A stretch of 64,000 nucleotides of DNA, taken from an uncultured Phycicoccus sp. (lineage in GTDB: Bacteria; Actinomycetota; Actinomycetes; Actinomycetales; Dermatophilaceae). How positions within the stretch are numbered: the stretch's first letter is position 1; each line of letters starts with the position of its first letter. This document shows positions 10,526-52,456 of this stretch, piece after piece. The translations under genes were made by a program, and so were the position numbers. The notes beneath the pieces were generated by a model. That model was not told the origin of the DNA and searched no databases. It saw only the letters and a list, made by a program, of their open reading frames with translations. The stretch is from contig NZ_CANLZR010000005.1 of NCBI RefSeq assembly GCF_947495705.1, forward strand, positions 1 to 64,000, given 5' to 3'.

Positions 10526-10622
10526 GAACGGGCCGGGACGGCCCAGAGCACGCCCTGCTCGTGCTCCGGTTCCCACCATAGGCACAGGGGAACCCCGCTG
10601 AGCAGGGTCTTTCGGCAAATAG

Positions 10623-10634
10623 GGCCGATCGGCC
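10623..10634. repeat. Perfect 12-bp palindrome in a divergent intergenic region
   Basis: GGCCGATCGGCC lies in the 268-bp region between the M15 peptidase (minus) and the SSB-like gene (plus). The rest of this region shows no RNA element I recognise. A DNA-binding role is possible but unsupported. Confidence 0.3.
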
Positions 10635-10793
10635 GGGGCATCGAGCCCCACTCGTCCCAGCCGCCCCATCCGCGTGCCCGCCGCCGTCCACAGGGCGCCG
10701 ACGTCGCTCCGCTCGTCCACAGACCGACCGGCGGGCCTGGTCCGGGGACCCGCCGCCCGGGAGGCTGGCCGGACAGGACGAACGGAGGGCACG

Positions 10794-11168
10794 ATGGCGG
10801 CCGAGAAGGACGAGGGCGACGAGAACGCGGTGCGGCTCGTCGGCCGGCTCACGGGGGCCGGGGAGCCGGTGACGCTCCCCAGCGGGGACGTGGTCCACAC
10901 CGTCCGGGTCACGGTGTCCCGTCCGGGGCGCAGGGCCTCCCCGCGGGCGGCGGTCGACGCCATCGACGTGGCCTGTTGGAGCGCCGCCACGCGCCGGGTC
11001 GCCGGTCGGCTGGCCGTCGGGGACCGGGTCGTCGTCGACGGAGCCCTGCGACGCCGGTTCTTCCGCGCCGGGGGAGGGGCGGTGAGCCGCTACGAGGTGG
11101 AGGCGACGCGGGTGCGCCGCCTTCCGGCGCTCACTCGCGCTCGCGCAGCATCTCCTCCATCAGGGTGA
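10794..11168 (+). CDS. Single-stranded DNA-binding-like OB-fold protein
   Basis: The 124-residue protein has an SSB-type OB fold: VRLVGRLTGAGEPVTLPSGD, then VTVSRPGRR, DAIDVACWSA, RVAGRLAVGDRVVVDGALRRRFFR and SRYEVEATRVRRL. It lacks the acidic DDDIPF tail of the replicative SSB, so it is probably an accessory paralogue. GGAGGG lies about 7 nt before the ATG. Its last 38 bases overlap the end of the convergent DUF305 gene. Confidence 0.78.
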   Translation: MAAEKDEGDENAVRLVGRLTGAGEPVTLPSGDVVHTVRVTVSRPGRRASPRAAVDAIDVACWSAATRRVAGRLAVGDRVVVDGALRRRFFRAGGGAVSRYEVEATRVRRLPALTRARAASPPSG

Positions 11169-11769
11169 TCTCGGCGGCCTGCGCGCGCTCGATCGCGCCG
11201 GCCAGGCTGAGGACCTCGTCGGTGGTCGCGTCGGCCAGTGCCGCCTCGGCCATCACGACCCCGCCCCGGTGGTGCTCGATCATGAGCCGCAGGAAGATCC
11301 GGTCCGCGTCGACGCCGGACGCCTCGCGCAGGGTGTCGAGCTGCTCGGCGCTCGCCATGCCCTGCATCGGCTCACCCGCCTCCACGTGCGCGCTGTGCTC
11401 ACCGCCGACCCACGCCATCGGCGCCGCCGGCGCGGTCTGCGGCAGCCCCCACTGGACGAGCCAGCCGTACATCTGGCCGGCCTGCTGCTGCTGGCTCGTG
11501 ATGATGTCGTACGCCAGGGTGCGCACGGTCGGGTCGGTGCTGCGGTCGCGGATGAGGAAGCCCATCTCCACGGCCTGCCGGTGGTGGGTCTGCATGTCCC
11601 GGGCGAAGCCGGCGTCCGCGCCGAAGTCGGGCACCGAGGTCGAGGACGTTGCCCGCACCGCCAGCAGCGTGCCCGCCACACCGAGGACGAGGGCCACGAC
11701 CGCCGCCAGGACGACGGCACGCCGCGAGAACGTCTGGGTGGTCGTGTCGTGCTCTGCCGAGGTCGTCAC
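11131..11769 (-). CDS. DUF305 membrane-anchored protein
   Basis: The 212-residue protein has one N-terminal membrane helix (AVVLAAVVALVLGVAGTLLAV) and a ferritin-like four-helix DUF305 region outside the membrane. Two histidine motifs, MQTHHRQAVEM and IEHHRGGVVMAEAAL, mark the duplicated unit; in relatives such sites are linked to copper. It starts in a 4-nt ATGA overlap with the DUF3105 gene, so both are made together. Metal binding is inferred from family context. Confidence 0.85.
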   Translation of the reverse strand: MTTSAEHDTTTQTFSRRAVVLAAVVALVLGVAGTLLAVRATSSTSVPDFGADAGFARDMQTHHRQAVEMGFLIRDRSTDPTVRTLAYDIITSQQQQAGQMYGWLVQWGLPQTAPAAPMAWVGGEHSAHVEAGEPMQGMASAEQLDTLREASGVDADRIFLRLMIEHHRGGVVMAEAALADATTDEVLSLAGAIERAQAAEITLMEEMLRERE

Positions 11770-12404
11770 GACGTCGGCTGCTCCATGCCGGTGCCCTCGG
11801 TGGTGCTCCCGTCGCTGCCGCCGGTGCAGGCGGCCCCGGGCTCCGGGGTCTGCGGGCCCTGGCGGTACTCGCGGATGAACTCGGCCAGCCGCGGGTCCTC
11901 GACACCGTCGAGCGCGATCTGGTGGCCCCAGGCCGACGCCACGACCGGGGTGCTGAGGCCCTCGAGGGGCGAGATGAGCATGTACTCGTCCGGCACGCTG
12001 TCGACGAGCTTCTGCACCTGGTCCGCCGGCAGGTCAGGCTGGTACGTCACCCACACGGCCCCGTGCTCGAGGGAGTGCACGGCGAGCTCGTTGGGGACGG
12101 GGGCGTCGTAGACCCCGCAGTTGAGCCACACCGGGTTGTGGTCGCCGCCGACCGGCGGGGTCTGCTCGTAGCTGACCGGCGTCGTCACGTGGTTGGCCGT
12201 GACGTCGTCGAAGGTCTTGACGGCGTCGAGGGTCGGCCGGTTGGACACGTCGCGCCACACCGTGACACCGATGACGCCGGCGATGACGAGGATGACCGCG
12301 CTGATCCCCCCGATGAAGGCGAGCCGGCTGCGCCGCTCCTTCGCCTGCTGGGCCTTCTTCAGCTCATCGAGGGCGGCACGGGACTGGCGCGATGACGGGG
12401 ACAC
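11766..12404 (-). CDS. DUF3105 membrane-anchored protein
   Basis: This 212-residue protein has a charged cytoplasmic start (AALDELKKAQQAKERRSR), one membrane helix (LAFIGGISAVILVIAGVIGV) and an external DUF3105 domain. Typical motifs are GGDHNPVWLNCGVYD and HSLEHGAVWVTY. The function is unknown. GTG 12404 is chosen because GAGGAG lies 9 nt upstream; an upstream in-frame start at 12509 has no such signal. It forms a two-gene unit with DUF305, a pairing often seen in actinobacteria. Confidence 0.82.
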   Translation of the reverse strand: MSPSSRQSRAALDELKKAQQAKERRSRLAFIGGISAVILVIAGVIGVTVWRDVSNRPTLDAVKTFDDVTANHVTTPVSYEQTPPVGGDHNPVWLNCGVYDAPVPNELAVHSLEHGAVWVTYQPDLPADQVQKLVDSVPDEYMLISPLEGLSTPVVASAWGHQIALDGVEDPRLAEFIREYRQGPQTPEPGAACTGGSDGSTTEGTGMEQPTS

Positions 12405-41574: not shown

Positions 41575-42747
41575 TCACGGCACGAGCCGGGTATCGGGGT
41601 GGAACGCCACCCACGCGAACCAGAAGGTGTCCAGGAACAGGGACGGGGTCAGCTCGGCCCCGTCCAGCGGACCGGATGTGGCTCGACCCAGGACGTCCCA
41701 CCGGCTCCCCGTCTCCCGGTCCACGATGTCCTCGCCGCGCAGCTCGAAATGGAGCAGCCGGTCCCCCACCAGGGGCTCGAACACCCCGACCGACCCGATC
41801 TCGGCGCCGTCGGCGATCCGGCTGGTGTCCAGGGCCGAGGCCTGCCCCGGCCGATGCCAGAGCACGACGTCCCGACTCCCCACCGTCAGCTCCAGCGGTC
41901 CACGCCCGACGAGCGAGGCCCGCCGGACCGCGACGGCGTCCGACCCGTCGCTGACGCCGACGACCCGCTCCTTGACGGAGAGCCGGGTGTCGGGGTCGCC
42001 GGGCAGGGCGAACAGCAGCCGGCCGTCCGGGTCGTCGTATCCCGCGTACGGGTTGGTGCCGTACGGCCGGGCGAAGCCGGTGTCCTGCGACAGGACGAGC
42101 GCCTCGGGGTGGGCGGCCGCGAAGTCCCGCCAGCCGACGGTCCCCATCGGGATCGCCTCCAGCGCGGTGCCCGTGAGGGCCCCCACCGAGGCCACGCCGG
42201 TGAGCTGCGGCCAGAGGGACTCGGTCTGGCGGTCGTACATCACGAGGTTGTCCGCGTAGAGCTGCCCGGAGGTGCCGAAGGACAGCACCCCGCGGTCGGC
42301 CACGGTTCGGAGGAAGGCCACACCGGAGGTGCACAAGGGGCAGAAGGTGACCGCCACCGGGACCCCTCCGACCTCGTCGTTGACGATCTCGTGCCAGGTC
42401 ATGACGCGCAGCGGGTACGCCCTGGTCTCCCCCGCGACCGTCAGCGACAGGACCGGCTCGTCGCCCTCCAGCCAGTCCACCGTCCCGGCCGGCTCGAAGC
42501 GGGGTTCGTCGATCGGCGGGATGCCGTCCGGCGGGGGGCCCCCGGACAGGAGGTCGTCGAGGTCGATCAGTGGGTCCGGGAAAGTGTCGTTCCGGGGGTC
42601 GTCCAGGGCCGAGGGGACGTCCTCGCGGGGTGCCTGGACGGACCGACCGGACGAGGACCCGGCGGGCTCCTCGACGGTGGTCGTGCCCGCGCAGGCGGTC
42701 ACGAGGGCGAGACCGGCGACGGCCAGCAGGGGTGCGATCCGGCTCAT
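41575..42747 (-). CDS. DUF3179 lipoprotein with CxxC motif
   Basis: The 390-residue protein has a lipoprotein signal (LALVTAC, C19) and a DUF3179 domain. Its characteristic block is MTWHEIVNDEVGGVPVAVTFCPLCTSGVAFLR with C136-P-L-C139, followed by SLWPQLTGVA and TGFARPYGTNPYAGYDD. The CPLC pair looks redox-active or metal-binding. GGGAGGT lies before ATG 42747. It is divergent from a TlpA/CcdA pair that could supply reducing power outside the membrane; that link is inferred. Confidence 0.85.
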   Translation of the reverse strand: MSRIAPLLAVAGLALVTACAGTTTVEEPAGSSSGRSVQAPREDVPSALDDPRNDTFPDPLIDLDDLLSGGPPPDGIPPIDEPRFEPAGTVDWLEGDEPVLSLTVAGETRAYPLRVMTWHEIVNDEVGGVPVAVTFCPLCTSGVAFLRTVADRGVLSFGTSGQLYADNLVMYDRQTESLWPQLTGVASVGALTGTALEAIPMGTVGWRDFAAAHPEALVLSQDTGFARPYGTNPYAGYDDPDGRLLFALPGDPDTRLSVKERVVGVSDGSDAVAVRRASLVGRGPLELTVGSRDVVLWHRPGQASALDTSRIADGAEIGSVGVFEPLVGDRLLHFELRGEDIVDRETGSRWDVLGRATSGPLDGAELTPSLFLDTFWFAWVAFHPDTRLVP

Positions 42748-42899
42748 GGTCAGTACCTCCCGTGCGTACCCGGGCGCCGAGGTGGCGCGTCGGGCCTGCC
42801 CCGAGCATGGGTCCGGCGGTGGGTCGGGTTCCGTGACCGCGGACACGGACGGGGCCACGCGCCACCCGCACACTGAGGTCTCCCGACGAGGAGGGCGAC

Positions 42900-43409
42900 A
42901 TGCGGTCGACGGTGCTCACGCGGCTGGTCCTCGGGGTGGCCCTGGCCCTGAGCGGATGTACCGCCCCGGCCGGGGACGACCCGGATCCCGGTCCAGGAGC
43001 CCTCCCTGCCGCCCCCGCCAGCCTGTCGTTCACCGCCGAGACGCTGGACGGCTCGACCCTCGACGGCCGGTCGCTGGCCGGGCGGCCCGCGGTGTTCTGG
43101 TTCTGGGCGCCCTGGTGCCCCACGTGCCGAGCACAAGCGGGAACGGTCCAGGCCGTGAGCGCGACGTACGCCGGCCGGGTGCACGTCGTCGGGGTCGGCG
43201 GGCTCGCCCCGCCCGCGGACATCCGGGACTACGGCAGCTCCGTCGACGGGGTCACCCACCTCGTCGACGAGGACGGCTCGCTCTGGGTGCACTTCGCCGT
43301 CACGGCCCAGAGCACCTACGTCCTCCTGGACGCCGACGGGCGCGTGGCCGCTCAGGGGTACCTCGACAACGAGGACCTCGCCGCCCGGGTGGCGGAGCTG
43401 GTGGGCTGA
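42900..43409 (+). CDS. TlpA-like thioredoxin-fold lipoprotein
   Basis: The 169-residue protein has a lipobox ALSGC (C20) and a thioredoxin fold with FWFWAPWCPTCRAQAG (C73, C76), then DVTHLVDEDGSLWVHFAVTAQSTYVLLDADG. The cis-proline position, usually P, is replaced near QSTYVLL, as in some AhpC/TlpA members. GAGGAGGG precedes the ATG. CcdA follows one base after its stop and would keep it reduced. Confidence 0.87.
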   Translation: MRSTVLTRLVLGVALALSGCTAPAGDDPDPGPGALPAAPASLSFTAETLDGSTLDGRSLAGRPAVFWFWAPWCPTCRAQAGTVQAVSATYAGRVHVVGVGGLAPPADIRDYGSSVDGVTHLVDEDGSLWVHFAVTAQSTYVLLDADGRVAAQGYLDNEDLAARVAELVG

Positions 43410-43410
43410 G

Positions 43411-44262
43411 GTGCTGACCGGCACCGCGGCTCTGGCCCTCGCCGCCGGGATGCTCGCGGCGCTCAACCCCTGCGGTTTCGCCCTCCTCCCGGCGTACCTG
43501 TCGCTGCTGGTCACGGGTGAGGACCCGAGCCGGACGGCCGCGGTGGTGCGGGCGCTGCGGATGACGGTGGCGATGACGGCAGGGTTCACCGCCGCCTTCG
43601 CCGTCTTCGGCGCCGTCGTGGCTCCCGTCGCGAGCTCGGCCCAGCGGTACCTGCCGTGGTTCAGCGTGCTGGCCGGAGCAGCGGTGTTCGGGGCCGGGCT
43701 CTGGCTCGTGACCGGCCACGGGCTCGTCCTGCCCGCGTGGGGCTCCCGGCCCGGCAGGCCGGTCACCCGCTCGCTGGGCTCGATGTTCGGGTTCGGGGTC
43801 TCCTACGCGCTCGCCAGCCTCACCTGCACCATCGCCCCGTTCCTCGCCGTCGTCGTCTCTTCCTTCCGCGCCGAGTCCCCACTCGCGGGCCTCGGCCTCT
43901 TCGCTCTCTACGCGGCGGGCATGGGTCTGGTCGTCGGGTCGGCCGCACTGGCCGTGGCCCTGGCGCGCAGCTCGCTGGTCCGGGGCGCGCGCCGGGTGGG
44001 CCGGAGGATGCCGCTCATCAGTGGCTCCCTGCTGCTGGTCGTCGGTGCCTACGTCGCCTACTACGGGTGGTGGGAGATCCGGGTCCTCGGCGGAGCCGGA
44101 CCCGACGACCCGGTGATCGAGGCGGCCGCGCAGGTCCAGCAGTCGCTGGCCCAGGCCGTCGCAGCGGTGGGGCCGACCGGGTTCGTCGTCGTCGTGGTCG
44201 GGGCGCTCGCGTCCATCGGCGCGGTGCGAGCGGTCCGGCTGGTCACGAGCCGGCGCCGGTGA
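43411..44262 (+). CDS. CcdA/DsbD-like thiol-disulfide transporter
   Basis: The 283-residue membrane protein has about six to seven helices. CcdA motifs are ALNPCGFALLPAYLSLL, with the first redox Cys, and SYALASLTCTIAPFLAVV with the second. It carries electrons from cytoplasmic thioredoxin to external thioredoxin-fold partners. The partner is most likely the preceding lipoprotein. GTG 43411 is used because it is one base after the upstream stop. Confidence 0.88.
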   Translation: MLTGTAALALAAGMLAALNPCGFALLPAYLSLLVTGEDPSRTAAVVRALRMTVAMTAGFTAAFAVFGAVVAPVASSAQRYLPWFSVLAGAAVFGAGLWLVTGHGLVLPAWGSRPGRPVTRSLGSMFGFGVSYALASLTCTIAPFLAVVVSSFRAESPLAGLGLFALYAAGMGLVVGSAALAVALARSSLVRGARRVGRRMPLISGSLLLVVGAYVAYYGWWEIRVLGGAGPDDPVIEAAAQVQQSLAQAVAAVGPTGFVVVVVGALASIGAVRAVRLVTSRRR

Positions 44263-44435
44263 GCGGCGTGGGACCCGACACCGTGGACGGGACGGCCGGC
44301 GCGGTCGACAATGGGATGGTCGGGTTGCCGCGCCGGACCGGGGGCTCGACACCGGGTCCGGTGGCGTGTCGTGGCGCGCTCGACGTCTGCCGCCCCCCAC
44401 CCTGGGCGCCGCGACACCGCGAGGAGCTGAGCGAC

Positions 44436-45137
44436 GTGGACGGCCACACCGTGACCCCCGACCCCTGGTGCATCGCCGAGGTCGACATCTTCGCCGACCT
44501 CGAGGACCGGGAGATGGCGGCGATCGCCGCCGCAGCCCCGATGCGACGGTTCACGCCCGGCGACCTGGTGTACTCACCACCCCAGCCGGCCGAGGTGCTC
44601 TTCATCCTCAAGGAGGGCCGGGTCCGCATCTTCCGGGTCTCCGCCGACGGACACGCCCTGACCACGGCGATCATCACCCCAGGAACGATCTTCGGCGAGA
44701 TGCTCGTGCTCGGCCAGCAGATGCACGACAACTTCGCCGAGGCCCTCGACGACGTCACGGTCTGTGTGCTGAGCCGAGCCGACGTCCAGCGCTTCCTGCT
44801 CTCGGACCCCCGCATCACCGCCCGCATCCTCGGGATCCTGGGCGCCCGGGTCTCCCAGCTCGAGCGGCGGCTGTCCGACAGCGTCTTCAAGAGCGCCCCG
44901 CAGCGCATCGCCGGCACCCTCTGCCTCGTCGCCGAGGCCGAACCGCCGCGGCGGCTGGGCGGCCGGCCGCAGGTCCGGCTCACCCACGAACAGGTGGCGG
45001 CCCTCGCCGGCACCTCGCGCGAGACGGCGACGAAGGTGCTCAACGAGTACGCCGACCGGGGACTCGTGGCACTCGGGCGCGGGCGGGTGGCCATCCTCGA
45101 CCTGGCCGCCCTCGCGGCGTCGGCCGGCGAGCCCTGA
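44436..45137 (+). CDS. Crp/Fnr-family transcription regulator
   Basis: The 233-residue protein has an N-terminal cyclic-nucleotide-like sensor domain (DIFADLEDREMAAIAAAAPMRRF, LFILKEGRVRIFRVS, PGTIFGEMLVLGQ) and a C-terminal Crp helix-turn-helix with LTHEQVAALAGTSRETATKVLNEYADRGLV. Two or fewer cysteines are present, so an Fnr iron-sulfur cluster is unlikely. GAGGAG lies 9 nt before GTG 44436. Its place after CcdA suggests control of the redox group. The ligand is unknown. Confidence 0.87.
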   Translation: MDGHTVTPDPWCIAEVDIFADLEDREMAAIAAAAPMRRFTPGDLVYSPPQPAEVLFILKEGRVRIFRVSADGHALTTAIITPGTIFGEMLVLGQQMHDNFAEALDDVTVCVLSRADVQRFLLSDPRITARILGILGARVSQLERRLSDSVFKSAPQRIAGTLCLVAEAEPPRRLGGRPQVRLTHEQVAALAGTSRETATKVLNEYADRGLVALGRGRVAILDLAALAASAGEP

Positions 45138-45159
45138 CCGTCGGCGGCGCAGCCCGCGG

Positions 45160-45327
45160 CTACCGGTGGCCCACCGGGGCCACCCAGCGGAAGGCGCTGA
45201 GGAGTGGCCGGCGACACCAGCACGTGGACGAGCAGTGGCACTGCTGGTATCCCGCCGCCTCCGCGGCGCGGGTCGCGACGGCCGCGGTCAGGTACACACC
45301 GACCGCGACGACTGCAGCGCGTCTCAT
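45160..45327 (-). CDS. 55-residue membrane-linked Cys-rich peptide
   Basis: A small reading frame on the minus strand encodes a hydrophobic segment (AAVVAVGVYLTAAVATRAA) and then GYQQCHCSSTCWCRRPLLS with C30, H31, C32, C36 and C38. TACCCT lies exactly 6 nt before the ATG, the same leaderless layout as larger genes here, which supports it as real. I do not recognise a family. CxCx3CxC could bind a metal or form disulfides. It converges with the Crp/Fnr gene (22 nt between) and diverges from the Trx-fold gene. Confidence 0.6.
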   Translation of the reverse strand: MRRAAVVAVGVYLTAAVATRAAEAAGYQQCHCSSTCWCRRPLLSAFRWVAPVGHR

Positions 45328-45333
45328 CCGTCG

Positions 45334-45387
45334 AGGGTAGACCCGCTCGGTCGGCGCCGATCCGCCGCGCCGTCCGCCGTCTACCGT
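45334..45387. promoter_or_regulatory. Divergent leaderless promoters for two small redox-type genes
   Basis: TACCCT on the minus strand (45334-45339) is 6 nt before the Cys-rich peptide ATG, and TACCGT on the plus strand (45382-45387) is 6 nt before ATG 45394. Both are in a 66-bp intergenic region. Confidence 0.6.
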
Positions 45388-45393
45388 CGGGGG

Positions 45394-45693
45394 ATGGAGA
45401 TCACGCTGCTGTACTTCGGGGGCTGCCCGCACTGGGAGGTGGCCGACCAGCGCGTGCGCGAGCTCGCGGCGGGCCGCCCCGACATCACCATCACCCACCG
45501 GCTGGTGGAGACCCCCGAGGAGGCCGACCGCGTGGGATTCCTCGGCTCGCCGAGCATCCTCGTCGACGGCGTCGACCCGTTCGCGGAGCCCGGAGAACAG
45601 CCGGGGCTGTCGTGTCGCAGGTACCGGACCCCGGACGGGTACGCGGGCGCACCGACCCTCGAGCAGCTCCGAGCGGTCCTCGGCGCCGGCTGA
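45394..45693 (+). CDS. Thioredoxin-fold protein of the DF (seleno)protein type
   Basis: The 99-residue protein begins MEITLLYFGGCPHWEVADQ, with C11 where selenocysteine-containing relatives have a redox centre, and has RVGFLGSPSILVDGVDPFA and GLSCRRYRTPDGYAG. These match a small thioredoxin-like family often found near mercury or metal genes. Only one Cys is in the first motif. The start is leaderless. The Zur-type promoter region begins 30 nt after its stop. Confidence 0.75.
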   Translation: MEITLLYFGGCPHWEVADQRVRELAAGRPDITITHRLVETPEEADRVGFLGSPSILVDGVDPFAEPGEQPGLSCRRYRTPDGYAGAPTLEQLRAVLGAG

Positions 45694-45725
45694 GCGCGCC
45701 GGTCCAGCCGCGGCCGGCAGCCTTT

Positions 45726-45754
45726 TTGACATTGACAATCGTTATCAATACTGT
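45726..45754 (+). promoter_or_regulatory. Promoter with Zur box for the Opp-type importer operon
   Basis: TTGACA (45726-45731), 17 nt, and TACTGT (45749-45754) make a strong promoter. The spacer contains TGACAATCGTTATCA (45733-45747), a 7-1-7 inverted repeat of the Fur/Zur type, so bound repressor would exclude RNA polymerase. A zur-like gene closes the operon. Transcription would start near 45761. Confidence 0.75.
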
Positions 45755-45796
45755 CCGGGGCGCATCCTCTCCCCCACCCCGGAAGGCAGACCTCAC

Positions 45797-47344
45797 ATGC
45801 GTCGCCCCCTTCGCCTCCTGGGTCCCGCGGTCGTCTCCGCGGGACTCATCGGGCTCACCGCCTGCAGCACGGGCACCGGCCCCACGAGCTCCCCCGACAC
45901 GCTCCGGATCGCGGGTCCGTTCGAGGTCCACAGCCTCGACCCGGCCGTGGACGGGGAGGTCTTCACCCGCCTGCAGGTCGCCGAGACCCTGGTGACCAGC
46001 GACATCGACGGGGAGCTGGCCCCCGCCCTGGCCACCGACTGGTCCTCCTCGAGCGACCACACCGAGTGGACGTTCGACCTCGTGGAGGGCGCCACCTTCC
46101 ACGACGGGACGCCGGTCACGCCCGACACGGTCATCGGCGCCCTCGAGACGGCCGCCGCGCAGGAGGCGAGCCCCCTGGCCGAGACGCCGATCGAGGCACT
46201 CCGGGCCCAGGGGTCCTCGGTCGTCGTCGAGCTCGCCGCGCCCTACCTCACGCTGCCGGCCGTGCTGACGCACTACAGCACCGCCGTCCTCGCCCCCGGG
46301 TCCTACGACGACGCGGGCCGTGTCACCTCGGTCATCGGGTCCGGCCCCTACGAGGTGGAGCGGGTCCAGCTGCCGGCGTCGATCAGGACCACCCGCTTCG
46401 ACGGGTGGCGGGACGCGCCGCCCGCGATCCGGAACGTCTCGTTCCAGTCCGTCGGGCGGGCCGAGACCCGCGCGCTGATGGCAGCCAGCGACCAGGCCGA
46501 CGTGGTCTTCGGCCTGGAGCCCGCCGGACGCCAGCGCATCGAGACCACCGCCGGAGTCGGCCTGGAGTCGAGCCTCCAGCCCCGGACGATCCTGCTCAAG
46601 GTCAACGCCGGCCACCCGGCGCTCGCCGACGTGCGGGTGCGCCGAGCGCTCAGCCTGGCCCTGGACCGCGAGGCGATGGCGGGGGCGGTGCTCCGCGAGG
46701 AGGGGCTGGCCGCGACCCAGCTGCTGCCGCCCTCGCTGGACTCCTGGCAGGCCGACCTCGAGCCCCTCCGCCACGACCGGGAGGCCGCCCGGGCCCTGCT
46801 GGCCGAGGCGGGGTGGGCACCCGGGGCCGACGGCATGCTGCACCGGGACGGCGAGCCGCTCCGGCTCGACCTCCTGACCTACCCCGACCGTGCCGAGCTG
46901 CCGGCCCTGGCCACGGCGATCCAGGCCGCGCTCGCCGACGTGGGCGTCGCCGTCGACGTCGAGGTGGCCAACTCGAGCGAGATCCCGGCCGCGCAGGCCG
47001 ACGACAGCCTCGAGCTCGCCCTCATCGCCAAGCACTTCGCCCTCGTCTCGGACCCGCTGATCGACGTGGCCGCCGTCTTCGACCCCGACGGCGCGGACTG
47101 GGGCGTCATGAACTGGCGCGACCCGGCCGTCGAGACCGCCGTGGAGGCACTGCTGGCCGGCGCCCCCGAGGACGCGGCCGTTGAGCACCGCCGGGCCATC
47201 GTCGGCACCGCCCAGAGCCAGCTGCCGCTCATCCCGGTGGCGTGGTACCGCATGAACGCCGCTGTCAGCGAGAGCGTCGAGGGCTTCGTGCTGGACCCCC
47301 TCGAGACCAGCTGGCGCATCACCGACCTGCGGTGGGCCTCGTGA
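45797..47344 (+). CDS. Opp/Nik-type ABC substrate-binding lipoprotein
   Basis: The 515-residue family-5 binding protein has a lipoprotein signal ending IGLTACS. SBP5 blocks are FEVHSLDPAVDGEVFTRLQVAETLV, WTFDLVEGATFHDGTPVTPDTV, VIGSGPYEVERVQ and DVRVRRALSLALDREAM. Members bind peptides, nickel or metal-chelator complexes. The Zur box ahead of it and zur behind it point to zinc or a zinc metallophore. GGAAGG lies 10 nt before the ATG. No His-rich loop for bare zinc is seen, which favours a chelated ligand. Confidence 0.88.
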   Translation: MRRPLRLLGPAVVSAGLIGLTACSTGTGPTSSPDTLRIAGPFEVHSLDPAVDGEVFTRLQVAETLVTSDIDGELAPALATDWSSSSDHTEWTFDLVEGATFHDGTPVTPDTVIGALETAAAQEASPLAETPIEALRAQGSSVVVELAAPYLTLPAVLTHYSTAVLAPGSYDDAGRVTSVIGSGPYEVERVQLPASIRTTRFDGWRDAPPAIRNVSFQSVGRAETRALMAASDQADVVFGLEPAGRQRIETTAGVGLESSLQPRTILLKVNAGHPALADVRVRRALSLALDREAMAGAVLREEGLAATQLLPPSLDSWQADLEPLRHDREAARALLAEAGWAPGADGMLHRDGEPLRLDLLTYPDRAELPALATAIQAALADVGVAVDVEVANSSEIPAAQADDSLELALIAKHFALVSDPLIDVAAVFDPDGADWGVMNWRDPAVETAVEALLAGAPEDAAVEHRRAIVGTAQSQLPLIPVAWYRMNAAVSESVEGFVLDPLETSWRITDLRWAS

Positions 47345-48309
47345 GTCTGCGCATCCGCGCCCTCGGAGGGGTGCTCGCCCGGCGCGGCGCCCAGTCGGTC
47401 GGCGTTGCCGTCCTGGTCTCCGTGCTCTGCTTCCTGGTCGTCCGGCGGCTACCCGGCGACGCCGCGTACCGGATCGCCGCCGGCCGCTACGGCTACGACC
47501 TGGTCGACGAGAAGGCCGCGGACGCCGTCCGGGCCGAGCTCGGGCTGGACCGGCCCGCGTGGCAGCAGCTGGGCGGCTGGCTGGGCGACCTGTTCCGGCT
47601 CGACCTCGGACGGTCCCTCGTGACCTCGCGCCCGGTGGTCGAGGAGGTCGGGTACTACCTGCTCGGCACGCTGCAGCTGGCCGCTGTCGCCCTCGCCTTC
47701 GCCACCGTCCTCGGCGGCGCAGCCGGCGTCCTGGCCGCCCGCCGGCCCGGCGGCCCGGTGGACCGCCTGGCCACGGCATGGGTCGCCGGGGTCCGGGCGG
47801 TGCCGCCGTTCCTGCTCGGCCTCGTGCTCGTGATCGTCCTCTCCGCCCAGCTCGGGCTGCTCCCGGCCGTGGGCCACGACAGCGCGTCCGGGATCGTGCT
47901 GCCGGCACTCACCCTCGGCATCGGCCTGTCCGGCCTGGTGGCCAGGGTCACGCGCGACGCCGTGGTCGAGGTGCGGCAGTCCGACTACGTCCGGTTCGCC
48001 CACACCAAGGGACTCGCCGAGCGCTGGGTGCTCCTGCGCCACGTCGTCCGCAACGCCGCCGTCGTCCTGGTCCCCTACCTGGGCGTCCAGGCGGTCATCC
48101 TCGTCGAGGGAGTCGTCGTCGTCGAGAGCCTCTTCGCCTGGCAGGGCCTCGGGCACGCCCTGGTCCATGCGGTGTTCTGGCGCGACGTGCCGGTCCTCCA
48201 GGCCGCCGCGCTCGCCCTGGCCCTGCTCATCGTCACGCTCAACACGCTGGTCGACGTCGCCGGGTTGTGGCTCGACCCTCGACCCCGCCGACAGGAGGCC
48301 CGCGCATGA
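47341..48309 (+). CDS. Opp-type ABC permease 1
   Basis: The 322-residue protein corresponds to the DppB/NikB subunit. After the first helix (SVGVAVLVSVLCFLVVRRLPGD), it has the DLGRSLVTSRPVVEEVGYYLLGTLQL region and the EAA loop RQSDYVRFAHTKGLAERWVLLRHVVRNA. About six helices are expected. GTG 47341 overlaps the binding-protein stop (GTGA). Confidence 0.9.
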   Translation: MSLRIRALGGVLARRGAQSVGVAVLVSVLCFLVVRRLPGDAAYRIAAGRYGYDLVDEKAADAVRAELGLDRPAWQQLGGWLGDLFRLDLGRSLVTSRPVVEEVGYYLLGTLQLAAVALAFATVLGGAAGVLAARRPGGPVDRLATAWVAGVRAVPPFLLGLVLVIVLSAQLGLLPAVGHDSASGIVLPALTLGIGLSGLVARVTRDAVVEVRQSDYVRFAHTKGLAERWVLLRHVVRNAAVVLVPYLGVQAVILVEGVVVVESLFAWQGLGHALVHAVFWRDVPVLQAAALALALLIVTLNTLVDVAGLWLDPRPRRQEARA

Positions 48310-49139
48310 CGACCCCGCTGCTCGAGGCGGCGGCGACGGTCGACGGGGCGCGCCGACGACGCCCGCTCACGCGCGTGGTGGCCCTCGGGGGGCTCCTGGC
48401 GCTGGCGGTCTTCGCGGTCATCGGCCCCCTCATGCTCCCCGACCCTGCCGCCCAGGACCTGAGCCGCTACCTCGAAGCCCCGACCCTCGCCGAGCCGCTC
48501 GGCCGGGACGACTACGGCCGGAGCGTGCTGGCCCGGCTCGCGCACGCGGCCCGGCTCTCACTCGTCCTGGCGGCGGGGTGCGTCGCCACCGCGCTGGTCC
48601 TCGGCACCACCGCGGGCGTGGTGTCGGCGTGGCTCGGCGGGTGGGTCGACGCCCTCCTGCGCGCGGTGTCGGAGGCCTTCGTCGCCATCCCCGCCCTGCT
48701 CGTCGTCCTCCTCGTCTCGGCCCTCGGCTCCGGCGGCATCTGGGCGCTCTACCTCGGGCTCGCGCTCGCCCAGTGGGTGGAGTACTTCCGGGTCGTGCGG
48801 GCGCGCACCGGCCTGGTCCTCGGCTCCCCCGCCGTCGAGGCGGCCCGGCTGCTCCGCCTCGGCCCGGTCCATGTGGTCCGGCGGCACCTGTGGCCCGACC
48901 TGCGGCAGCTGCTGACCACGCTCGCCTCGCTCGGCATGGTCACCTCCATCCTCGCCATGTCGACGCTCGGCTTCGTCAAGGTCGGCCTCCAGCCACCGCG
49001 CGCCGAGCTCGGCCTGATGATCACCGACTCCTTCCCCTTCTACGACATCGCGCCCTGGCTCGCGCTGGCACCGGTCACGGTGCTCTTCCTGCTCACCGTC
49101 TGCTTCCTGGGCCTGCGCACCTCCGAGGACCCCTCATGA
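48306..49139 (+). CDS. Opp-type ABC permease 2
   Basis: The 277-residue protein is the DppC/NikC-type partner: LMLPDPAAQDLSRYLEAPTLAEPLGRDDYGRSVLARLAHAARLSL is the usual opening, and RTGLVLGSPAVEAARLLRLGPVHVVRRHL the EAA-type loop. It starts in an ATGA overlap with permease 1 and ends in one with the ATPase gene. Confidence 0.9.
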   Translation: MTTPLLEAAATVDGARRRRPLTRVVALGGLLALAVFAVIGPLMLPDPAAQDLSRYLEAPTLAEPLGRDDYGRSVLARLAHAARLSLVLAAGCVATALVLGTTAGVVSAWLGGWVDALLRAVSEAFVAIPALLVVLLVSALGSGGIWALYLGLALAQWVEYFRVVRARTGLVLGSPAVEAARLLRLGPVHVVRRHLWPDLRQLLTTLASLGMVTSILAMSTLGFVKVGLQPPRAELGLMITDSFPFYDIAPWLALAPVTVLFLLTVCFLGLRTSEDPS

Positions 49140-50578
49140 CCGAGACCGCTCTCGTCACCGACCGCGGCACCGACCACGCCCTGAGCGTCCCGAGGGCCAC
49201 CGTCAGGCACGGCACCGTGACGCTCGTCGACGTCGCCGACCTGCGCATCGCCCCGGGCCGACCCCTGACCATCGTGGGCGAGAGCGGGTCGGGGAAGTCC
49301 GTGCTCGCGCATGCCCTCATGGGCACCCTCCCGCCCGAGCTCGTCGCCGAGGGATCCATGGCGATCGGGCCGGCCCGGTTCGACCTCGCCGACCGCAGCG
49401 GCCGCCGTCACCTGTGGGGACGCGAGCTGGCACTGCTCCCCCAGGAACCGGGCCTGTCGCTCGACCCGACGATGCGGGTGCGCGCTCAGGTCGCCGAGGG
49501 GGCACGTGGCTGGCGGCCCCGCGACCGCGCGGCCCTGCGCCTGGCCGATGAGCGGCTCGACCACGTCGGGCTGGCCGGCTCCGGGGCGGCCTACCCTCAC
49601 ACCCTGTCGGGTGGCATGGCTCAGCGTGTCGCGTATGCGGCGGCGACCATCGGCGGGGCCCGGATCCTCGTCGTCGACGAACCGTCGAAGGGGCTCGACC
49701 CGGCGTCGCTGGACCGGCTCGCCGACCTGCTCGCCGGCCACGTCGCCGACGGCGGCCTCCTGCTGACGATCACCCACGACCTGCGCCTGGCCCGCCGGCT
49801 GGGCGGCGAGGTGCTGGTGATGCGGGACGCCTCGGTCGTGGAGGGCGGCCCCGCCGACCGGGTCCTCACCGCGCCGCGCCACGCCTACACCGAGCGCCTG
49901 GTGGCCGCCGAGCCGTCCCGCTGGAGGCACGCGTGGACCAGCCCGCCCACGGCGGACCGGACGGCCGAGCCCTTGGTCAGCGCGCGGGGGATCTCGAAGT
50001 CGTACGGGGACCACGTGCTGTTCCGCGACCTCTCCCTGGACATCCGGGCCGGCGAGCGGTGGGCCTTCACCGGCCCGAGCGGTGCCGGCAAGACCACGCT
50101 CGGCAACGCGGTGGTCGGCCTGGCGAGCCTGGACGCCGGCTCGGTCGCGCGCCATCCCGCCACCCGCGGCGGCCGGGTGCAGAAGCTCTACCAGGACCCC
50201 ACCTCGTCCTTCCCCCGCCGGGTCCCGCTCGAGGGCCCGCTGCGCGACGTGCTGCGCCGCCACGGCGCCGGCGAGGACCGTTTGAGGTCGCTCCTGGCGC
50301 ACGTCGGCCTGCCCCCCGAGATCCTGCGCCGGCGGCCCGGCCAGGTGTCCGGTGGCGAGCTGCAGCGCATCGCCGTCGTGCGGGCGATGCTCGCCCGCCC
50401 CGTCCTGGTCTTCGCCGACGAGGCCACCTCCCGCCTGGACCTGGCCACCCAGGAGACGACGATGGACCTCCTCATGACCGAGGTCACCGGCACCGGGTGC
50501 GCGCTGCTCCTGGTCACCCACGACCCGGCCCTGGCCGCTGCGGTCACCGAGCACCGCATCGAGCTCGGGCAGGCGTGA
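49136..50578 (+). CDS. Fused double ATP-binding protein of the Opp-type importer
   Basis: The 480-residue protein joins two ABC ATPases that are normally separate (DppD/DppF, NikD/NikE). Domain 1 has Walker A GESGSGKS (~48-55), signature LSGGMAQR (from 157) and Walker B ILVVDEPSKGLDP. Domain 2 has GPSGAGKTT (from 313), VSGGELQR (from 404) and VLVFADEATSRLD. A roughly 30-residue linker (around SRWRHAWTSPPTADRT) joins them. Both domains keep the ATP-binding residues, so both are probably active. The ATG overlaps permease 2. Confidence 0.9.
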   Translation: MTETALVTDRGTDHALSVPRATVRHGTVTLVDVADLRIAPGRPLTIVGESGSGKSVLAHALMGTLPPELVAEGSMAIGPARFDLADRSGRRHLWGRELALLPQEPGLSLDPTMRVRAQVAEGARGWRPRDRAALRLADERLDHVGLAGSGAAYPHTLSGGMAQRVAYAAATIGGARILVVDEPSKGLDPASLDRLADLLAGHVADGGLLLTITHDLRLARRLGGEVLVMRDASVVEGGPADRVLTAPRHAYTERLVAAEPSRWRHAWTSPPTADRTAEPLVSARGISKSYGDHVLFRDLSLDIRAGERWAFTGPSGAGKTTLGNAVVGLASLDAGSVARHPATRGGRVQKLYQDPTSSFPRRVPLEGPLRDVLRRHGAGEDRLRSLLAHVGLPPEILRRRPGQVSGGELQRIAVVRAMLARPVLVFADEATSRLDLATQETTMDLLMTEVTGTGCALLLVTHDPALAAAVTEHRIELGQA

Positions 50579-50643
50579 CGGCAACTCCGCTCCCCCGCAC
50601 CCGGCCCGAGGTACGGTGAGTCGACCCCACCCAGCGAGGTCGC

Positions 50644-51111
50644 GTGCCCACAGGATCCACTTCCGGCGCCCCGTCGAACCGTGCCGGGCGCGAGCGGTCG
50701 ACGCGGCAGTTCCAGGGCGTGCGGGACGAGCTCGGGAGGAGCCGGGACTTCCGCAGCGCCCAGGACATCCACGCCGCCATGCGAACCGGGGGCGCGTCGG
50801 TGGGGCTCGCCACCGTCTACCGCGCGCTGCAGACCTTGGTCGAGGCCGGGACCGCCGACGCGATGCGCACCGACGCCGGCGAGACCGTCTACCGCGAGTG
50901 CGGCTCGACGCACCACCACCACCTGGTGTGCCGCTCGTGCGGGCGGACGATCGAGGTGCGGGGGGCTGCGGTCGAGACCTGGGCCGACGACGTGGCCACC
51001 CGGCACGGGTTCGCCGAGGTCGGTCACACCCTGGAGCTGTCCGGCATCTGCCCGCCCTGCCAGGACGCTGCCCGGCGGGCCTCGCCGACATCGGCCTCCT
51101 CGCCCCGGTGA
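50644..51111 (+). CDS. zur: Zur-type Fur-family regulator
   Basis: The 155-residue Fur-fold repressor has a winged helix (SAQDIHAAMRTGGASVGLATVYRALQTLVEAG). Its zinc ligands are C86 and H90-H93 in YRECGSTHHHHLVCRSCG, the structural pair C96/C99, and C136/C139. The YRxCxxxHHHH form is characteristic of Zur in actinobacteria rather than iron Fur. GTG 50644 has GAGGT upstream. TACGGT at 50612-50617 could give it its own promoter in the 65-nt gap after the ATPase gene. Confidence 0.87.
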   Translation: MPTGSTSGAPSNRAGRERSTRQFQGVRDELGRSRDFRSAQDIHAAMRTGGASVGLATVYRALQTLVEAGTADAMRTDAGETVYRECGSTHHHHLVCRSCGRTIEVRGAAVETWADDVATRHGFAEVGHTLELSGICPPCQDAARRASPTSASSPR

Positions 51112-51136
51112 CGGCGCGGAGACGGGTCGAGCGGGA

Positions 51137-52456
51137 TCAGGGCTCCGACGGTCGGCTCCCGTACCGCTGGTCGTAGGCGCGGCGGACGCGGTCGCGGTCC
51201 GCCTCCGGCACGTCCGCTTCTTCGTTCATCGCCCGGACCAGGTCAGCCTGCCTCCGGAGAGCGTCGACGGCGTCGCGCCGGTCCAGGCCGTGGAGCGACT
51301 GCTCGACCTGGTCCAGCACCGCGAGCAGATAGATGAGCACCGTCGGCTGCTCCGCGGAGGCGATCCGCACCTCGTCGAAGGCGAGGTCCACGAGCCGGGC
51401 GTGGGTGGTGGCGTGCGGAACCAGCAGGACCTGACCCTCCCGGCCGCGCAGCGTCCGGGCGGGTGGCCGGCGGCGGAGCAGGTCAGCCAGGACGCTGCCG
51501 AGGTGCGAGACCGCGTCGTGCGCCGTCGTCGGGTCGTTGATGCCGGGCGACATGGCCTTGAGCGCCACATCGGCGAGCTGCCGCACCCCGTACGCGACAT
51601 CCTGCTGCAGCGTGCGGGTCTCACCCACGATCACCGCGGCTCTGACCGCGCGCTCGACCGCGGCGGCGTCCTCGGGGGGCGGGAAGACATGACAGATCGG
51701 CGTCTCCTGCACGGCGTACTGCCCGGCGAAGGTGTCCAAGCGCGTCCGCGACCCGGACGGCAGGCCGGCCAGGAGTGCGTCGTAGTCGACGTTCTGCACC
51801 CACCCGTGGGCGGAGAAGCGGACCGCGGCGGCGCCCTGGGGCAGGTTCGCCGTCGCCTCGCCTGCCGCCTCCTCGGGGGCCTCCGGCTCCGGTTCCGGCC
51901 AGGCGTCGTCGGCCTGGCTCAGCACCTCGTCGGTGACGCGGCGCAGGATCTGCGAGACGTCCATGGAGTGCGCCGCGTGGTTGATGAAGGCGACGATCGA
52001 GAGGATCGAGGCGATGCCGAGCACGACGGTGAGCAGGATCGAGACGCTGGGGACGATGGCCTCGCCGCTGCCCTCCAACGGGCTGCGCACCGCGCGCAGG
52101 ACGACGAGGCAGTAGGTGAAGGTGCCGATGACCAGCCCCATCACGCGCTTGTTGAACGGGTCCCGGAACATGCCGTGCACGACGCGGGGCGAGTACTGGC
52201 TCGACGCGAGCGAGATGAGCAGCAGACTGACCGAGAACGCGATCCCGGCGAACGTCAGCGTGGCACCGGCCACCGTCGTGAGAACCGTGCGGGCACTGTC
52301 GACCGTGGCGGTCAGGCGAGGGTGGATGCCGGTGACCTGGGAGTCGACCAGGAGCATCGCCTCCCCGAGGACGATGCCGCCCACGACGAACATCATCGGA
52401 ACGAAGAAGAGACTGCTCCGCAACCGGTCACTGACGGCGGTCAGTCGGGAGAGCAT
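51137..52456 (-). CDS. DUF2254 membrane protein
   Basis: The 439-residue protein has four N-terminal membrane helices (FFVPMMFVVGGIVLGEAML, VLTTVAGATLTFAGIAFSVSLLLI, VMGLVIGTFTYCLVVL, VSILLTVVLGIASILSIVAF) and a long cytoplasmic part. That part contains the family block SPGINDPTTAHDAVSHLGSVL and CHVFPPPED. The function is unknown; transport of ions or predicted signalling have been suggested for the family. GGAGGAG precedes the ATG. It converges with zur with 25 nt between. Confidence 0.87.
   Translation of the reverse strand: MLSRLTAVSDRLRSSLFFVPMMFVVGGIVLGEAMLLVDSQVTGIHPRLTATVDSARTVLTTVAGATLTFAGIAFSVSLLLISLASSQYSPRVVHGMFRDPFNKRVMGLVIGTFTYCLVVLRAVRSPLEGSGEAIVPSVSILLTVVLGIASILSIVAFINHAAHSMDVSQILRRVTDEVLSQADDAWPEPEPEAPEEAAGEATANLPQGAAAVRFSAHGWVQNVDYDALLAGLPSGSRTRLDTFAGQYAVQETPICHVFPPPEDAAAVERAVRAAVIVGETRTLQQDVAYGVRQLADVALKAMSPGINDPTTAHDAVSHLGSVLADLLRRRPPARTLRGREGQVLLVPHATTHARLVDLAFDEVRIASAEQPTVLIYLLAVLDQVEQSLHGLDRRDAVDALRRQADLVRAMNEEADVPEADRDRVRRAYDQRYGSRPSEP

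Follow-up and report, generated by a model that had tools for sequence, protein, structure and literature searches.

Introduction

Importers of the Opp/Nik type governed by the zinc repressor Zur are already known. In Paracoccus denitrificans, the account given in PMC5387054 describes a cluster C ATP-binding cassette (ABC) transporter, pden1341-1344, which is up-regulated 12.6-16-fold in zinc depletion, bears a Zur motif before pden1341, and is called 'somewhat unusual', its specificity being unassigned in 2017. Two operons of Corynebacterium diphtheriae, dip2162-2165 and dip2125-2128, are reported to be repressed by zinc and Zur (PMC6711530), and the Staphylococcus aureus CntABCDF (Opp1) is described as an Opp/NikA-family importer that serves zinc acquisition under Zur (PMC5666155). 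Dipeptide-type importers are also reported beside opine-zincophore genes, Actinobacteria included (PMC7438024). Here, we analyze an operon of this kind followed by a gene for a second Zur, an unusual neighbor, in a 64,000-nucleotide stretch (the window, positions 1-64000 of contig C5) of a 3.54-Mb actinobacterial genome assembled in 31 contigs.

By published description, the window operon resembles pden1341-1344 in its solute-binding protein (SBP), two permeases and one ATPase gene, and in the Zur motif at the promoter, which in the window is recognized by motif only. It differs in that pden1341-1344 belongs to another phylum, carries another Zur motif and has no zur in the published seven-gene region, which is headed by a COG0523 gene, as is the homologous operon of Pseudosulfitobacter (L100). 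The C. diphtheriae operons share with it the actinobacterial host and the order SBP-permease-permease-ATPase, and dip2162 is called NikA/OppA-like; unlike the window operon, dip2162 is also under iron/DtxR control and lies beside the sidAB synthesis genes, and the account in PMC6711530 places no zur alongside either operon. Unlike the window system, CntABCDF as described in PMC5666155 works with the metallophore staphylopine and is also Fur-controlled. Among the matches listed in our literature search, none was recognized, by title or start of abstract, as dealing with this operon in the window's group or with the family as a whole. The comparative evidence given below, together with the published Zur control of similar transporters, strongly supports Zur control and a role in zinc starvation. 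We consider it very likely that the operon encodes an Opp/Nik-type (cluster C, SBP5) ABC importer for zinc starvation, working as outlined in the Discussion.

Results

Upstream of the transporter genes, the 7-1-7 repeat TGACAATCGTTATCA lies entirely within the 17-bp spacer between TTGACA and TACTGT. Across the whole genome, two sites match the pattern TGANAATNNTTNTCA exactly, one being the box of the window and the other lying before znuA at C15:15440. A second box with one mismatch is found at 15462 of C15, both boxes standing at the znuA start and being followed by znuA, znuC, znuB and a Fur-family gene in that order (names assigned by eye). This znuACB-zur locus with its tandem Zur-type boxes (L028, G000:C15:8000-20000) lies between uppS/recO-like genes and a glycyl-tRNA synthetase-like gene (by eye). 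When up to two mismatches were allowed, the genome gave 40 listings (19 forward and 21 reverse; one site may appear on both strands), compared to 3 and 5 for the reversed-pattern control. In the window alone, the same search gave 2 listings (one site on both strands) vs. 0.39 expected, a number reached in 8 of 100 shuffles, so that the window by itself provides weak evidence; the case for the box rests on the genome-wide and comparative counts. Among the two-mismatch sites with loci (n = 20), 15 fall within likely genes and 5 are intergenic, and none precedes a recognizably zinc-related gene (10 further listings without a locus were left out). The genome has one L31 gene. A cobW search yielded one weak match (25.2 vs. 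a cut-off of 20.7 bits) in a 1176-aa frame and one below the cut-off, and neither was accepted as a zinc chaperone.

The homologous operons were then compared within and beyond the Actinomycetota. For the actinobacterial loci, we searched 260 bp upstream of the first gene for the symmetrical form TGANAAYNRTTNTCA, which is near the mycobacterial consensus given in PMC7174638. The box appeared with at most one mismatch in 12 of the 14 operons, where shuffles predict 0.005 loci; in L037 and L052 it has two mismatches. In 11 of the 14 loci, the -35 element begins 7 bp ahead of the box, which thus fills the promoter spacer (an A at position 2 and a T at position 6 of the -10 element were required in this count). 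The rest of these 261 kb contains four sites with at most one mismatch, one each in L032, L033, L035 and L059, and every one of them precedes a gene of the zinc-starvation type. In L032, the gene encodes a Cys-free L31 protein; in L033, the box lies between L28 and L31 genes (by eye); and in L059, an ArsP_1-type permease stands directly behind the operon. The operon box of L035 is located ahead of a ZnuA gene (Pfam ZnuA), after which the SBP gene comes. A zur gene follows the operon of L035 with one gene between, and lies tail-to-tail with that of L060. These neighbors come from the 3.2 kb behind each operon and, for L031-L037 only, from the whole locus; gene calls were crude, and names without Pfam were given by eye. 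The L052 operon has genes resembling CsoR, CopZ and a copper ATPase some 0.9-3 kb beyond its end (by eye).

For the proteobacterial loci, the search motif derived solely from the five Zur sites of P. denitrificans that PMC5387054 gives. When up to two mismatches were allowed, it was present in 18 of the 20 regions searched upstream of the operons, vs. 0.22 expected; the 20 include nine from Aeromonas, two copies in one Paracoccus strain, and the Pseudosulfitobacter region taken before the COG0523 gene; a further Aeromonas caviae record (L102), outside this count, has the same motif. It was also found in three of four additional regions counted without shuffles, i.e., in 21 of 24 overall. The zinc role is best evidenced here, because two unlike Zur motifs precede the same operon in two phyla. 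Zinc-related neighbors occur as well: a divergent ZigA gene in Pantoea L098 (above the cut-off of the ZigA model), a divergent aztA cluster in Skermanella L101, and the COG0523 gene that heads the Pseudosulfitobacter L100 operon. Paracoccus aestuarii L105 was dropped as a zur-znu neighbor: its Fur-family neighbor lacks CxxC pairs and matches Fur models best in NCBIfam, below the cut-off, and for this reason its 'zinc' annotation was not used as evidence. In Aeromonas L039 and L041, the Fur-box-like TGATAATGATTATTG lies behind the Zur motif upstream of the SBP gene, and both Zur and Fur may act there, as they do at S. aureus cnt.

Relatives of the operon at 17 loci belong to five Nocardioides, Haloechinothrix, Cellulomonas, nine Aeromonas and Pasteurella bettyae. 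With E to 1e-60, at least 3 of 186 genomes of the window's family are carriers, and with E to 1e-50, at least 7 of 394 class genomes, with the window's genome counted in both; these are lower bounds, up to 8 (family) or 3 (class) first-look candidates having been scored per genome. Plasmid records add 132 matches at E ≤ 1e-40, none of which reaches 60% identity; in 85 records, the match spans at least 80% of the query. Carriers among the 30 records listed, 15 of which were inspected in detail, include Azospirillum, Paracoccus, Agrobacterium, Pantoea, Sinorhizobium, Cupriavidus and Variovorax. Members of the SBP5 family with predicted Zur control are found in Actinomycetota as well as in alpha- and gammaproteobacteria, and relatives occur in betaproteobacteria.

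Each of the 14 distinct actinobacterial loci (the window plus 13 others) and four proteobacterial ones show the gene order SBP-permease-permease-ATPase; it is constant throughout the 18 loci compared with the window, 17 of them distinct (L058 repeats L032 and was left out). Other records left out were L040-L046 from the operon tree, L042, L044 and L046 from the SBP alignments, and L061 from the alignment of 28 SBPs. In L061, the double ATPase match (10562-11955) comes in two pieces with a break near query residue 130, and the best piece only was used; gene starts of L061, L111 and L112 were chosen by hand. The SBP gene of Aeromonas salmonicida ATCC 33658 (L046, 7890-9448) runs in two overlapping frames and looks broken or misassembled. 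In one P. aestuarii strain, the transporter is present twice, on two plasmids (L096 and L105), and behind each copy stands the gene for a metal ABC transporter SBP, under one shared protein accession; the window SBP has 44% identity with the P. aestuarii protein and 43% with that of Pseudosulfitobacter.

The layout of the window operon is given in Table 1. The four transporter genes are coupled by 4-bp stop/start overlaps, and zur starts 65 bp beyond the ATPase gene on the same strand. A scan of 45600-51300 found no terminator-like hairpin between the ATPase gene and zur, and no box of its own was found upstream of the window zur. The SBP bears the sequence LTAC, which we take to be a lipobox. 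The preceding region, 41575-45693, contains redox-like genes (by eye: DUF3179-like, TlpA-like thioredoxin, CcdA-like membrane protein and a Crp/Fnr-type regulator) and a small protein with GGCPHW. The sequence-only reading of this DNA, made earlier without database searches, had described the 7-1-7 box inside a TTGACA-N17-TACTGT promoter, an SBP5 lipoprotein, two permeases and a double ATPase in coupled genes, and a Fur-family gene with Zur-type ligands next to them. All of this was borne out, by the coordinates in Table 1, by the overlaps together with Pfam, and by PDB alignments, respectively, and the gene order that it proposed to look for in other genomes recurs, as far as the four transporter genes go, in the 14 actinobacterial loci.

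Table 1. Features of the Zur-type box, transporter operon and zur gene in the window
Feature	Coordinates	Strand	Basis
Terminator-like hairpin, T-run after it reaching into the -35 element	45698..45718	+	1 site in 45600-51300 vs. 0.3 expected (shuffles)
-35 element TTGACA	45726..45731	+	sequence
Zur-type box TGACAATCGTTATCA, 7-1-7	45733..45747	.	1 of 2 exact matches in genome
-10-like element TACTGT	45749..45754	+	sequence; 3/6 consensus bases
SBP_bac_5 solute-binding lipoprotein, 515 aa (P0001)	45797..47344	+	SBP_bac_5 E 9.6e-65; lipobox
Opp/NikB-type permease	47341..48309	+	BPD_transp_1; GTGA overlap with SBP gene
Opp/NikC-type permease	48306..49139	+	BPD_transp_1; ATGA overlap
Double ATPase, one chain	49136..50578	+	two ABC_tran stretches; ATGA overlap
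Zur (Fur family), genome's second Zur paralog (P0005)	50644..51111	+	FUR E 2.8e-25 (Pfam)

According to Pfam, the operon combines SBP_bac_5, two BPD_transp_1 permeases and an Opp/Nik-type ATPase, i.e., it is of the Opp/Nik type (SBP5, cluster C). NCBIfam gave Nik- or Opp-like names, NikA/Opp2B/Opp2C/NikD being closest, with all matches listed (in the case of the ATPase, the 25 best among 184) under the cut-off. The window SBP reached 205.7 bits with Opp5A_nikA (cut-off 600) and 152.8 with TIGR02294 (393), and the Cnt models scored 86.1 vs. 800 bits (CntA), 93.2 vs. 440 (CntC), 185.5 vs. 380 (CntD) and 185.2 vs. 385 (CntF). When the PDB was searched with the family SBP profile, NikA entries and 5yh5/5yh8/5yhe ranked above DppA and OppA; the latter three, deposited under the name nickel transporter protein, are presumably CntA. 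Identity to the window SBP is 34-75% for the 27 other family SBPs and 23% for E. coli NikA. The 28 aligned family SBPs share no conserved Cys, and all 28 have Gly at the position aligned to NikA His416, which we take, in the numbering assumed here, to be a ligand position. Arg221 is kept in 27 of the 28, and Glu223, Arg225 and Lys268 in all; the sole near-invariant His is His 102 (27/28), inside an FHDG stretch that is general in SBP5 proteins. E. coli NikABCDE is of the same fold family and has the same gene kinds, but it differs in SBP identity, in the His ligand position, in having two ATPase genes and in nikR behind the operon; CntABCDF likewise has two separate ATPases. Membership in NikABCDE was rejected on the NikA scores and the invariant Gly, and membership in the Cnt opine-metallophore system on the Cnt scores and the lack of PF10100 in 18 carriers.

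The window Fur-family protein matches best, among PDB entries, 2o03 (M. tuberculosis FurB/Zur, E 1.3e-40), then 3mwm and 7vo0, presumably both S. coelicolor Zur, and next a Fur with E 3.3e-16. In these alignments, the Cys, His, Asp and Glu of the proposed zinc ligands, which we take to be two CxxC pairs, HHHH, an upstream Cys, Asp, Glu and a late His, are all identical in the window protein. NCBIfam gave nothing over the cut-off: its Zur model PRK11639, which represents another Zur type than the actinobacterial one, reached 33 of 167 bits, under the Fur models. Judging by these residues and alignments, the regulator is a Zur of the actinobacterial type, predicted to bind the box in a zinc-dependent manner. 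Exact boxes are found both here and before znuACB-zur, and the genome therefore has two Zur paralogs. They are two of its four Fur-family matches, the other two lying beside a KatG-like and a YgfZ-like gene (by eye). The stretch VGLATVYR-x-LQ, presumably the recognition helix, is common to the window Zur and the znu-linked Zur, so that both probably bind the box. Proximity to a YgfZ-like gene is the setting given for the nickel sensor Nur in PMC4531530, where a second Zur is also reported for one Frankia strain.

Two Zur-type proteins were found in 6 of the 14 actinobacterial carriers (in the loci inspected). Zur trees were computed from 20 Zur-type sequences of 14 genomes, FUR matches given as loci being those included. 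The window Zur pairs with the second Zur of a Nocardioides metagenome-assembled genome (MAG; G572) with support of 98/96, and the pair next joins the second Zur of Nocardioides SYSU D00038 (86/82), which is encoded on the contig that carries its importer, at a distance of about 18 kb; the znu-linked Zur of C15 groups with Zurs of two same-family genomes (96/93). In the operon tree, the window again stands beside this Nocardioides MAG. The operons of the same family are placed elsewhere, that of G138 with 87/86 and that of G079 on the far side of a 100/99 branch. Since both trees point to the same MAG, we infer that the importer and the second Zur were probably acquired together, in that direction, from a Nocardioidaceae-like source, with tree support that is good for Zur and moderate for the operon. 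The base composition of the region shows no deviation. Zurs of relatives that are not znu-linked stand in zinc-starvation settings, with S14, L28 and a permease in L075, with an ArsP_1 permease in L080, and with an own box in L083; in L084, such a Zur accompanies a weakly CobW-like gene (19.7 bits vs. a cut-off of 20.7).

A TonB-dependent receptor gene lies just upstream of the SBP gene, on the same strand, in Cupriavidus L111 and Variovorax L099. The L111 receptor exceeds the siderophore-receptor cut-off (TIGR01783, 405.9 vs. 223.5 bits), and that of L099 was identified by eye. The opine dehydrogenase PF10100 was found in none of the 18 carriers, a search in which no positive control gave a match; run over the class, it matched 1 of 394 genomes (E 7.4e-196). 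Nonribosomal peptide synthetase condensation-domain matches occur in 7 of the 18 carriers, the window's genome having a weak one (33.7 bits vs. a cut-off of 30.6), so that a zincophore of this type is conceivable. The nickel superoxide dismutase (Ni-SOD) gene of the window's genome (G000) lies at C1:173972-174334.

Discussion

Taken together, the data suggest the following mechanism. When zinc is sufficient, zinc-loaded Zur would occupy the spacer box and keep RNA polymerase out. When zinc is low, Zur would leave the box and the coupled SBP-permease-permease-ATPase operon would be made; judging by the motifs, zinc depletion very probably induces the operon. The binding protein would most likely capture a small organic zinc complex, either a metallophore of neighbors or another zinc chelate, which the permeases and the double ATPase would import. 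Transcription from the operon promoter probably continues into the downstream zur, which would form a feedback arm distinct from the znuACB-linked Zur.

Several points weigh against this reading. A generic promoter scan gave no promoter here, since TACTGT fits TATAAT at 3 of 6 positions only, making the -10 element weak. The actinobacterial box consensus was set after the first sites were known. Among the 24 proteobacterial regions, the motif is absent at the operons of Variovorax L099, Cupriavidus L111 and Pasteurella, and the regions searched upstream of the L099 and L111 TonB receptor genes contain no Zur motif with at most three mismatches. No zinc neighbor was recognized in 8 of the 14 actinobacterial loci (L031, L034, L036, L037, L051, L052, L061 and L062), nor is one annotated nearby in Azospirillum, Agrobacterium vitis, Pseudoroseomonas, Aureimonas or Roseinatronobacter. 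The zur gene adjoins the operon in only 3 of the 14 actinobacterial loci, and the operon tree places the window beside the Nocardioides MAG with 83/88 only. The P. denitrificans and C. diphtheriae systems were likened to the window by description and not by protein sequence, and the low identity to NikA makes single aligned positions uncertain.

What the importer carries admits several answers. The siderophore-type TonB receptors just upstream of two homologous operons, the lack of a conserved Cys, the Gly at the His416 position and the retention of Arg221, Glu223, Arg225 and Lys268 suggest a charged organic complex as the ligand, so that a zinc chelate is a plausible substrate. A binding protein that takes Zn2+ directly, with no chelate, would suit the zinc-starvation control shared with the znuACB operon and the lack of opine dehydrogenase in the carriers; we nevertheless regard it as improbable, because the 28 SBPs keep no Cys and only the near-invariant His 102 of the FHDG stretch, siderophore-type TonB receptors precede two homologs, and znuACB is already present for free zinc. 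Somewhat less probable still are peptides or another nutrient useful in zinc starvation, such as His-rich peptides or peptides spared from zinc peptidases, imported without a metal complex. Many SBP5 transporters are peptide importers. The specificity of pden1341 is called unassigned in the account of PMC5387054, which would also accord with peptides. On the other hand, the SBP profile ranks the NikA and presumed CntA entries over DppA and OppA, and siderophore-type TonB receptors lie beside two homologs. A NikABCDE-like nickel importer, under Zur or under Nur, appears very unlikely: the closest curated names are Nik-like, the closest solved structures are nickel-binding proteins, and the genome has both Ni-SOD and the Nur-like gene beside a YgfZ-like gene (by eye), but the Nik matches lie far under the cut-offs, the identity to NikA is low with Gly replacing the His, and the box is of the Zur type in common with znuACB. 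Moreover, urease is encoded in 4 of the 18 carriers, the window's genome not among them, and Ni-SOD, present in 12 of the 18 including this genome, is missing in 6. Given the carriers that do have these enzymes, a need for nickel is nevertheless conceivable.

Another question is which Zur acts at the box. The znuACB-linked Zur may control it, the adjacent Zur serving other genes or being a passenger; the presence of two Zurs in the genome, the rarity of an adjoining zur among the loci and the lack of an own box at the window zur lend this some weight, yet the helix stretch common to both proteins suggests binding by both, and the window Zur and operon point to the same MAG in the trees; we rate control by the znu-linked protein as less likely than not. 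The zinc-starvation importer of the sequence-only reading thus stands on the comparative motifs and the published analogs, and its chelated zinc is plausible. Its claim that Zur represses the operon is strongly supported on comparative grounds, the adjacent Zur being a candidate actor, given the second, znu-linked Zur, the place of the local zur 65 bp behind the operon with no box of its own, and the few loci with an adjoining zur. Of the zincophore synthesis cluster for which it proposed a search, the opine type, sought via its dehydrogenase, was not found in the carriers.

Conclusions

The probable zinc-starvation importer described here may, as a tentative suggestion, belong to a zinc-acquisition module that moves between genomes together with a repressor of its own: a Zur-controlled SBP5 family for a zinc chelate produced outside the carrier, i.e., zincophores of others, with the adjacent Zur paralog giving the operon a separate zinc threshold. 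The family, with its 28 SBPs, two types of Zur motifs, and TonB receptors at two betaproteobacterial members, makes the chelate hypothesis testable, and a genome with two Zurs of different ancestry offers a natural setting in which to ask if such an importer, once acquired, retains a sensor and threshold of its own.

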